Assembly: GCA_927443375.1 (NCBI GenBank)
Contig: CAKMKL010000013.1
Coordinates: 1 to 59,283 of the forward strand
From: an uncultured Paenibacillus sp.
Lineage (GTDB): Bacteria > Bacillota > Bacilli > Paenibacillales > Paenibacillaceae
Length of the DNA: 59,283 nucleotides
Direction of reading: 5' to 3'
Shown here: piece after piece, positions 49,838-51,451 of the stretch
Numbering within the stretch: the stretch's first letter is position 1
Layout of the letters: every line of letters begins with the position of its first letter
Translations under genes and position numbers: made by a program
Notes under the pieces: model-generated
Seen by the model: only the letters and a program-made list of their open reading frames with translations
Database searches by the model: none
What the model was told of the DNA's origin: nothing

Positions 49838-49931
49838 GCGGGGATTTTCCATCATCATGTAAGTATACCTAACACAAAAGCCTGTAATCCGCTCTAAAAA
49901 AAGCATAAAAATGAATAAATAAAAATTTATA

Positions 49932-49971
49932 TGTCATTATTATTGACATTTTCACTGTGACTATTTATATT
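49932..49971 (+). promoter_or_regulatory. GlnR/TnrA-type box overlapping the nitrate operon promoter
   Basis: TGTCATTATTATTGACA (49932-49948) matches the GlnR/TnrA consensus TGTNA-N7-TNACA at every fixed base. Its right half is the -35 box TTGACA (49943-49948), followed after 17 bases by TATATT (49966-49971). TnrA and GlnR are the nitrogen-status regulators of Firmicutes. The overlap with the -35 box leaves open whether the effect is activation or repression. Confidence 0.8.
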
Positions 49972-49990
49972 GACAATATAAGATTTCAAC

Positions 49991-50175
49991 GACACAGCAT
50001 TGTGTCAACAAAGGAAACAACGGGTTCTCCCCACAATGTTGTGGCTGGATGGCTTGTTGTACCGGCATTCTTACATTTGTTTATAAAGTCAGCCACGATG
50101 ACGTGGCTGCAATTGGCAACGGGGCCGATTAACACAATCCGCAGGTATGCGGGTTCTGTCAGTCGGCCCTTTTTT
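49991..50175 (+). promoter_or_regulatory. Nitrate operon leader with three hairpins and an intrinsic terminator
   Basis: The predicted transcript starts near 49978 and runs about 240 bases before the transporter gene. H1 is GACAC-AGCATT-GTGTC (49991-50006). H2 is CCAC-AATGTT-GTGG (50031-50044). H3 is CAGCCAC-GATGAC-GTGGCTG (50090-50109). A terminator follows: GGGCCGA (50122-50128) with TCGGCCC (50163-50169), enclosing CCGCA-GGTA-TGCGG, then six T. The H3 left arm can pair equally with GTGGCTG at 50041-50047 or at 50103-50109, so two folds compete. This is the layout of conditional termination. The effector is unknown. Confidence 0.65.
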
Positions 50176-50218
50176 GTCGATTTATTACTTGGGGTTTATT
50201 AAAAGGAGGATGTCAGCA

Positions 50219-51451
50219 ATGGAAGCAAAAAGTTTTCGCAAGGCGGGTCATGCCCCGAGTTTGTTCTCAGCTTTTTTGTACTTTGACGTAAGTTTTATGA
50301 TTTGGGTGCTGTGCGGAGCGCTATCGCTCTACATTACCAAGGATTTCGGGTTGTCAGATACCCAAAAAGCAACGATGGTCGCCATCCCAATCCTCGGCGG
50401 CTCGATCTTCCGGATTCCAATGGGGATCCTGGCAGACCGCATCGGGAGTAAAAAAGCGGGTCTGACCGGGATGTTCCTCACCATTATCCCCCTTCTGTGG
50501 GGCTGGCTTGGCGGAAGCAGCCTGCTGCAAGTGCATATGATCGGATTCCTGCTCGGTTTCGCAGGTGCAAGCTTTGCCGTATCGCTGTCCCTTGCAAGCC
50601 GCTGGTACCCTCCGCAATATCAGGGGCTGGCGATGGGCATTGCCGGTGCAGGAAACAGCGGAACCGCGCTGGCTACCTTCTTCGGACCGCAAATCGCCCA
50701 GGCTTACGGATGGCACAGTGTATTCGGGCTCGCACTGATTCCTCTGGCGATCGTTATGATTATTTTTGCGGTATTAGCTAAAGATGCCCCGAATGCCCCT
50801 GCGCCTAAACCGCTCAAAGATTACCTCAGCGTCTTCAAGCATGCGGATACCTGGTGGTTCTCGATGTTCTATGCCATTACCTTCGGCGGGTTTGTAGGGT
50901 TCGCTAACTATGCAAGTATTTTCTTCTATGATGTGTACGGCGACGCTGCACACCCCGGGGGGCTGACCAAAATCCAGGTAGGATACCTGGTCACTATAAC
51001 AGTCATCGCAGGCAGCTTCTTCCGTCCTTTAGGCGGCTGGATCGCGGACCGGATTGGCGGCATGCGTCTGCTGCTTGTTTTGTACAGCGTAATTTCGGTA
51101 TGTGCGTTTGCCATTGCGTCGATGCCTGGTTCATTCCTGGTGATGCTGATCTATACCAGCGTAATGATGGCCTGCCTCGGGATGGGGAACGGCTCGGTCT
51201 TTCAGATCATCCCTCAGCGTTTCTCCAAGGAGATCGGAGTCATTACCGGCATTGTCGGTGCAGCCGGAGGTCTTGGCGGATATCTGCTGCCGACTTACAT
51301 CCTGGGCCCGTTGAAGCAGTCCACAGGCTCACAGGTCACCGGATTTCTCGTGGTCGGTTCCATTGTGCTCCTCACCACCCTTATCTTCTATGCTGTAACA
51401 AGATCCTGGAGAAAATCCTGGGCGAAAGCAGAGTCCGGTGTAAATTACTAA
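50219..51451 (+). CDS. nasA: Nitrate/nitrite transporter, NarK/NasA type MFS
   Basis: A 410-residue membrane protein with about twelve hydrophobic segments. It carries the two nitrate signature stretches of the NNP family, GIAGAGNSGTALATFFGP and GIVGAAGGLGGYLLP, and the DRIGSKKAG loop after helix 2. It imports nitrate (or exchanges nitrite) for the reductase encoded directly downstream, with a 37-bp gap. ATG 50219 is preferred; AAAGGAGG lies 9 bases before it, while the ATG at 50210 touches that site. Expression depends on readthrough of the leader terminator. Confidence 0.93.
   Translation: MEAKSFRKAGHAPSLFSAFLYFDVSFMIWVLCGALSLYITKDFGLSDTQKATMVAIPILGGSIFRIPMGILADRIGSKKAGLTGMFLTIIPLLWGWLGGSSLLQVHMIGFLLGFAGASFAVSLSLASRWYPPQYQGLAMGIAGAGNSGTALATFFGPQIAQAYGWHSVFGLALIPLAIVMIIFAVLAKDAPNAPAPKPLKDYLSVFKHADTWWFSMFYAITFGGFVGFANYASIFFYDVYGDAAHPGGLTKIQVGYLVTITVIAGSFFRPLGGWIADRIGGMRLLLVLYSVISVCAFAIASMPGSFLVMLIYTSVMMACLGMGNGSVFQIIPQRFSKEIGVITGIVGAAGGLGGYLLPTYILGPLKQSTGSQVTGFLVVGSIVLLTTLIFYAVTRSWRKSWAKAESGVNY

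Follow-up and report, generated by a model that had tools for sequence, protein, structure and literature searches.

Promoter, leader, and genes of the narK operon

In the window, i.e., the whole 59,283-nucleotide stretch of DNA analyzed here, which derives from an uncultured Paenibacillus sp., a gene for a NarK-type nitrate/nitrite transporter is followed by one for an assimilatory-type nitrate reductase, and both are preceded by a predicted promoter and a hairpin-rich leader (Table 1). The nitrate reductase and a CysJ-like flavoprotein reductase are joined in a single chain; its matches to the NCBIfam NasC and CysJ models fall short of the cut-offs. An in-frame ATG at position 50147 was rejected as the narK start because it lies inside the leader terminator; the start was placed at 50219, behind the ribosome binding site.

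Table 1. Features of the narK promoter, leader, and operon (positions in the window)
Feature	Position	Strand	Basis
Upstream GlnR/TnrA-type box, TGTAAGTATACCTAACA	49858-49874	+	Perfect match
GlnR/TnrA-type box overlapping the -35 element, TGTCATTATTATTGACA	49932-49948	+	Perfect match
Predicted sigma-A type promoter, TTGACA-17-TATATT	49943-49971	+	11 of 12 consensus positions
H1, GACAC-AGCATT-GTGTC; loop with A1 but A4	49991-50006	+	Hairpin drawn; 6-base loop
Extended hairpin with H2 at its tip and without a U-run	50013-50063	+	Folding; alignment to relatives
H2, CCAC-AATGTT-GTGG; loop A1/G4	50031-50044	+	Tip of the extended hairpin
P1 (H3 of the earlier note), candidate first antiterminator hexaloop, CAGCCAC-GATGAC-GTGGCTG; loop G1/G4	50090-50109	+	Stem changes on both sides
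P2, candidate second hexaloop, TTGGC-AACGGG-GCCGA; loop A1/G4	50113-50128	+	GGC-AAYGRG-GCC in 30/30 leaders
Intrinsic terminator, mutually exclusive with P2	50121-50175	+	Stem 50121-50170, U-run 50170-50175, -33.4 kcal/mol
narK ribosome binding site, AAGGAGG	50203-50209	+	Sequence reading
narK-type nitrate/nitrite MFS transporter gene	50219-51451	+	TIGR00886, 291.8 bits (below the cut-off of 311.7); PF07690
Assimilatory-type nitrate reductase (molybdopterin) fused to CysJ-like flavodoxin/FAD/NAD reductase, 1405 aa	51489-55706	+	Pfam domains

An earlier note on this DNA had proposed double control of the operon, with a single perfect GlnR/TnrA-type box overlapping the -35 element. That box does cover the -35 hexamer (49943-49948; the -10 hexamer is at 49966-49971), but a second perfect box lies upstream. 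These are the only two perfect boxes in the whole window, where 0.48 would be expected; since at least two occurred in 11 of 100 shuffles, their number is weak evidence, and the case for GlnR rests on conservation. The full fusion protein, or a large part of it, was found in 31 of 100 genomes, the window's own included (a search tally of 99 of 100 includes single-domain matches), and the narK leaders compared were those of the window and of 29 of the 30 other fusion-bearing genomes, G099 being left out. Among these 30 promoters, the -35 box occurs in all with at most one mismatch and in 24 without any; for the upstream box, the corresponding numbers are 27 and 20. The chance expectation above refers to perfect matches. 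The starts of the two boxes are 74 bp apart in the window and 72 to 74 bp apart in 26 of the 27 two-box promoters (84 in L049). A spacing of 74 bp corresponds to about seven helical turns and would suit two GlnR dimers on the same face of the DNA. The promoters of nirB genes that adjoin an ANTAR gene (see below) carry the -35 box in 48 of 49 cases (perfect in 8); their upstream box is perfect in all 49. In Paenibacillus polymyxa WLY78, which has no tnrA, nas expression is lowered by GlnR, which occupies the promoters of nasA, nasD1, and nasD2EF (PMC9948412). This precedent and the conserved boxes suggest that initiation at the narK promoter is probably set by nitrogen status via GlnR, with the two boxes as its candidate sites. 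Double control as such is thus supported by two GlnR-type boxes whose positions are conserved among narK promoters.

The leader folds better than its shuffled versions (z, -6.70; none of 200 as good). H1, H2, and H3 can be drawn as the earlier note described them, with 6-base loops closed by CAC/GTG; the minimum-energy fold includes a further pair and shows 4-base loops. The strong intrinsic terminator is likewise real. By contrast, the statement that only H2 follows the rule for ANTAR targets, A at loop position 1 and G at position 4, is wrong, since it missed P2, whose loop has both bases and which overlaps the terminator. The segment GGGCCGA (50122-50128) is part of the terminator stem and, except for its first two bases, which lie in the P2 loop, also makes up the 3' arm of P2. 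PMC3369931 describes the ANTAR dual-hexaloop layout as two hairpins, P1 and P2, joined by a short linker, with P2 placed at the foot of a terminator. P1 and P2 of the window follow one another in this way, each a hairpin with a 6-base loop and a stem of 3 bp or more. The P1 loop, GATGAC, has G4 but not A1, and the linker is 5 nt long if the P2 stem is counted as 3 bp and 3 nt long if it is counted as 5 bp, compared with about 5 to 12 nt expected. Calculated stabilities are -33.4 kcal/mol for the terminator versus -17.3 kcal/mol for P1 plus P2, so the terminator would be expected to prevail as long as nothing holds P2 while the leader is being transcribed.

Conservation of the dual hexaloop and of upstream hairpins

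The motif GGC-AAYGRG-GCC occurs once per leader in all 30 narK leaders, a P2 loop with A1 and G4 being part of the search pattern itself, and in each of them the 3' arm of P2 pairs, by a simple rule, with a later segment that leads into T-rich sequence. The outer two pairs of P2 are not conserved. In the P1 loop, G4 is present in 29 of the 30 leaders, whereas position 1 is A in 9 and G in 21. Likewise, all 49 nirB leaders that lie beside NasT-like genes carry P1 and P2, both with A1/G4 loops (for example, CGAATAC-AACGAT-GTATTCG and GGC-AATGGC-GCC), and the 3' arm of P2 again pairs with a later segment before T-rich sequence (49/49); these leaders are a subset of the NasT-class loci rather than the full set of 65 to 66 NasT-class genomes. 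The terminators of nirB and narK have different sequences, and the shared P2 is therefore not merely a copied terminator.

The covariation envisaged in the earlier note as a check appeared for P1 in the nirB and pooled sets and was weak within the narK set alone. In the latter, the P1-P2 stems have two cells changed on both sides, a count reached by 28 of 500 shuffles, and a covariation score reached by 6 of 500, and the terminator has six such cells (1 of 500). In contrast, the P1 stem of 34 distinct nirB sequences has 15 cells changed on both sides versus 5.5 in shuffles, and pooling these with 20 narK sequences yields 71 versus 25.3, with 99.1% of cells paired; none of 500 shuffles reached either count, and a large share of the pooled signal reflects how the narK and nirB groups differ from each other. 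P2 contributes no covariation because its three inner pairs are invariant.

We also took a census of hairpins of the form [CT]AC-N6-GT[AG], with free loops, between the promoter and P1 of the 30 narK leaders. It returned 48 hairpins, all with A1 and with either G (29) or A (19) at loop position 4. Nineteen leaders have two of them, the first always A4 and the second always G4, ten have a single one that is always G4, and L056 has none. Exactly one upstream A1/G4 hexaloop is thus present in 29 of 30 leaders (freer closing pairs add one in L041), which, given the relatedness of the leaders, amounts to fewer than 30 independent cases. In the narK leaders of other genera of the family (L173 to L177, L179, and L182), an upstream A1/G4 loop was found in six of seven by a search that demanded A1 and a purine at position 4. 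An eighth narK leader from these genera, L181, whose NarK is 57% identical, consists of a single module. L176 and all three narK leaders from another family (L189, L191, and L192) have tandem modules, each with P1, P2, and a terminator; the second P1 of L176 and L191 contains a G-U pair near the loop. In a short alignment, H1 matches the upstream P1 of L174 to L176 and H2 the tip of their upstream terminator. The simplest reading of this likeness is that H1 would be the remnant of P1, and 50013-50063 the former terminator, of a decayed upstream attenuator. H2 itself would be accessory, with P1 and P2 as the main ANTAR site. More tentatively, the whole leader may have descended from two tandem ANTAR attenuators, of which the first, in the lineage of the window, lost its U-run and P2 while selection kept exactly one of its loops in A1/G4 form, either H1 or H2, newly arisen at the former terminator's tip, as a distant loading site; the result would be a three-loop switch with G1 in P1, a scenario that we consider possible but somewhat doubtful.

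A NasT-like ANTAR protein and its distribution

The earlier note had proposed looking for ANTAR genes in the same genome, and a NasT-like one was found beside nirB. It is the only match (68.7 bits; E, 1.9e-18) in the assembly searched (4.68 Mb, 421 contigs), which is 71.7% complete, so further ANTAR genes may be missing. At this locus (L061 190-4607; G000:C304), nirB is transcribed in one direction, and the ANTAR gene, followed by a gene for a TrpD2-like glycosyltransferase, in the other; the TrpD2 gene is present in 48 of the 49 nirB-bearing loci and absent from L112. The protein has 198 aa, and a C-terminal ANTAR domain is its sole Pfam domain over the cut-off. Its nearest named relative, from Paenibacillus tianjinensis, is 97% identical, and the protein of Paenibacillus riograndensis shares 79% identity. 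In the predicted structure (mean pLDDT, 87.6; pTM, 0.68), the N-terminal part is receiver-like, and the best fold matches in the PDB are EutV and then AmiR, with TM-scores of about 0.5 to 0.6. Of the 11 EutV RNA-contact residues named in PMC8934654, 10 are identical here and K147 is Met, with the numbering aligned by eye. The column of the phospho-acceptor Asp, aligned by eye over 33 orthologues, holds H in 18, C in 6, N in 3, and Y, Q, and D in 2 each; the protein of the window's genome has N and so lacks the phospho-Asp of the EutV class. As this residue is not conserved, the signal must reach the protein through a partner or a directly bound ligand. The Pfam search found no NIT nitrate-sensor domain in the 198-aa protein, and no NasS-like gene is among the annotated neighbors at L061; PF13379, used to search for NasS, has 2 to 8 matches in each of six genomes, which are ambiguous as NasS candidates. 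Across 33 sequences, the pseudo-receiver of the NasT-like proteins (L061 2952-3545) has invariant P77, W80, W81, and C82 and an invariant H114-W115 pair. These residues are a possible ligand or partner site.

The distribution of the RNA motif was followed with R1, a covariance model of P1-P2, matches with E below 1e-5 being taken as strong. The window's genome contains two R1 matches in all, before narK and nirB. On the window itself R1 scores 51.2 bits (next best, 12.3), a high value by construction, since the window is in the model. Strong R1 matches occur in 66 of 100 congeneric genomes, the window's own included, and 65 of these also have a NasT-class gene; one has R1 alone, one NasT alone, and 33 neither. 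The R1-only genome (G022), in which no ANTAR gene was detected, is a fragmented assembly of about 900 contigs, and G003, which has a partial ANTAR match, no nirB match in the locus, and no R1, was counted as NasT class. In 197 genomes of the family, covering 19 genera with Paenibacillus among them, 115 have both, 12 the protein alone, 2 a weak RNA match alone, and 68 neither; this tally used 127 of 128 protein-bearing genomes, leaving out G144 (E, 7.2e-11; in-frame stop) and second, weaker matches. A NasT-like gene lies within 1.5 kb of 115 of the 138 R1 matches in the family. Twelve of the other 23 are the already known narK leaders of the genus, and the remaining eleven comprise eight before narK-like genes, one (L178) before a nirB-like gene, and two (L180 and L183) before neither. 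The weak matches L180, L183, and L186 to L188 (E, 0.0017 to 0.0078), where no NarK, NasC, or NirB match was found, were taken as false positives. Because R1 was trained on many of the scored genomes and relatives are not independent, P values for this co-occurrence overstate its significance.

At L178, L184, and L185, a nirB-like gene (46 to 51% identical to nirB) is divergent from a narK-like gene and has a dual-hexaloop leader, so that some relatives may have a wider regulon. The other ANTAR class of these genomes, named EutV-like from its receiver, was rejected as the regulator: its loci (L062 to L071) have no nirB match in their flanks, and strong R1 matches are absent from all eight genomes in which it is the sole ANTAR class. 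Both classes are present in G070 and G071. Classes were assigned from locus comparison and match length, the second ANTAR gene of G096 being left unclassified.

Proposed regulation, alternatives, and known systems

We conclude that the narK leader is very probably a transcription attenuator under the control of the ANTAR-domain protein, with probable GlnR control of initiation. By default, the nascent leader would fold the terminator, and transcription would stop before narK. The NasT-like protein, once activated, presumably by nitrate or nitrite, would bind the P1 and P2 hexaloops; with P2 held, the 5' arm of the terminator would stay unpaired, and polymerase would continue into narK and on through the nitrate reductase gene. 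The NasT-like protein would also govern nirB, via the second dual hexaloop, so that nitrate uptake and reduction and nitrite reduction would form one regulon. The retained upstream A1/G4 hexaloop may help to recruit the protein. Some observations run counter to this model. The P1 loop begins with G here and in most narK leaders, and mutation of A1 lowered induction in the EutV system; natural eut linkers span 5 to 12 nt, and shortening to 3 nt lowered induction as well, both according to PMC3369931. In addition, the twelve family genomes noted above have the protein without an R1 match.

The earlier note had named two options, an ANTAR variant or a different RNA switch. The former is strongly supported by the ANTAR gene, the motif at the adjacent nirB, the co-occurrence of motif and gene, and the covariation of P1. 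A protein-free riboswitch or H2/H3 switch, in which a ligand would select whether CAGCCAC (50090-50096) pairs with 50041-50047 or with 50103-50109, is not needed and appears extremely unlikely. The two exclusive folds do exist in the window, and in its near relatives, each with 7 of 7 pairs. Over 29 leaders, however, the alternative is complete in just 8 and has 3 to 6 of 7 pairs in the other 21 (in L050 to L054, the arm tested was that of the sole upstream hairpin), versus 28 of 29 for the P1 stem, and this competing fold was therefore rejected. Neither fold uses the terminator arm, an Rfam search of the window returned no family at the gathering score, and the motif tracks the ANTAR gene across genomes, all of which speaks against such a switch.

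ANTAR control could also operate with H2 and P1 as the effective pair, or could require an upstream loop. This is very unlikely, even if H2 obeys the A1/G4 rule that P1 breaks and nearly every leader keeps one such loop upstream: the distance from H2 to P1 is 45 nt here and variable elsewhere, the census found no such loop in L056, and antitermination was lost when the eutP linker was made 20 nt longer (PMC8934654). Barely credible, finally, is an operon governed by GlnR only, or expressed constitutively, with the terminator setting a fixed read-through. The conservation and covariation of P1-P2 and the co-occurrence of the motif with one ANTAR class would then be left over, although the two conserved boxes, and the GlnR-bound nas promoters of P. 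polymyxa described in PMC9948412, would fit. Attenuation by the NasT-like protein at P1 and P2 thus remains our preferred reading.

This reading would give the degenerate-receiver ANTAR class a coherent regulon of nitrate uptake and reduction plus nitrite reduction in Paenibacillus and related genera. The natural variation of these leaders bears on the ANTAR model in two respects, namely the need for A1 in P1 and the ability of a lone, distant hexaloop to act in recruitment. Titles and abstracts among the literature matches listed contained no description of a Paenibacillus regulon under a pseudo-receiver NasT class, of G1 in P1, or of a tandem or decayed-tandem leader. ANTAR motifs before nitrate transporter and nitrite reductase genes in general are reported in PMC3369931, and given that coverage, the Paenibacillus system may already be in its supplementary tables.

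With respect to initiation, P. polymyxa promoters with two GlnR sites (PMC6191146 and PMC9948412) likewise combine two TGTNA-N7-TNACA-type sequences at a nitrogen promoter. In the window, the second site lies on the -35 element, with starts 74 bp apart, whereas in the P. polymyxa nif promoter it is downstream of the transcription start (PMC6191146). The nasA and nasD promoters of P. polymyxa are bound by GlnR (PMC9948412); the boxes of the window are candidates by sequence.

Among ANTAR systems, the closest in layout are the eut leaders of Enterococcus faecalis, targets of EutV, which also have two short hexaloop hairpins with G4 in both and the second overlapping a terminator (PMC3369931 and PMC8934654). 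The RNA-contact residues of EutV are largely kept in the Paenibacillus protein; the window differs in G1 of P1, a receiver without the conserved phospho-Asp, additional upstream hexaloop hairpins, and a nitrate-assimilation target. NasR-nasF of Klebsiella (PMC3369931) and NasS-NasT (PMC3795266) are further cases of ANTAR antitermination at assimilatory nitrate genes. Unlike NasR, the Paenibacillus protein has no NIT domain, and unlike NasS-NasT, it has no NasS-like gene among its annotated neighbors at L061. AmiR, which acts on amiE in Pseudomonas aeruginosa, shares the combination of pseudo-receiver and ANTAR domain and is among the best fold matches, but its partner AmiC (PMC3369931) has no counterpart identified here. 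The mechanism is already known, and the window, strictly taken, departs from it in one defining base, A1 of P1. With what seem to be the leftovers of another switch ahead of it, the arrangement appears to represent a new form of ANTAR attenuator.
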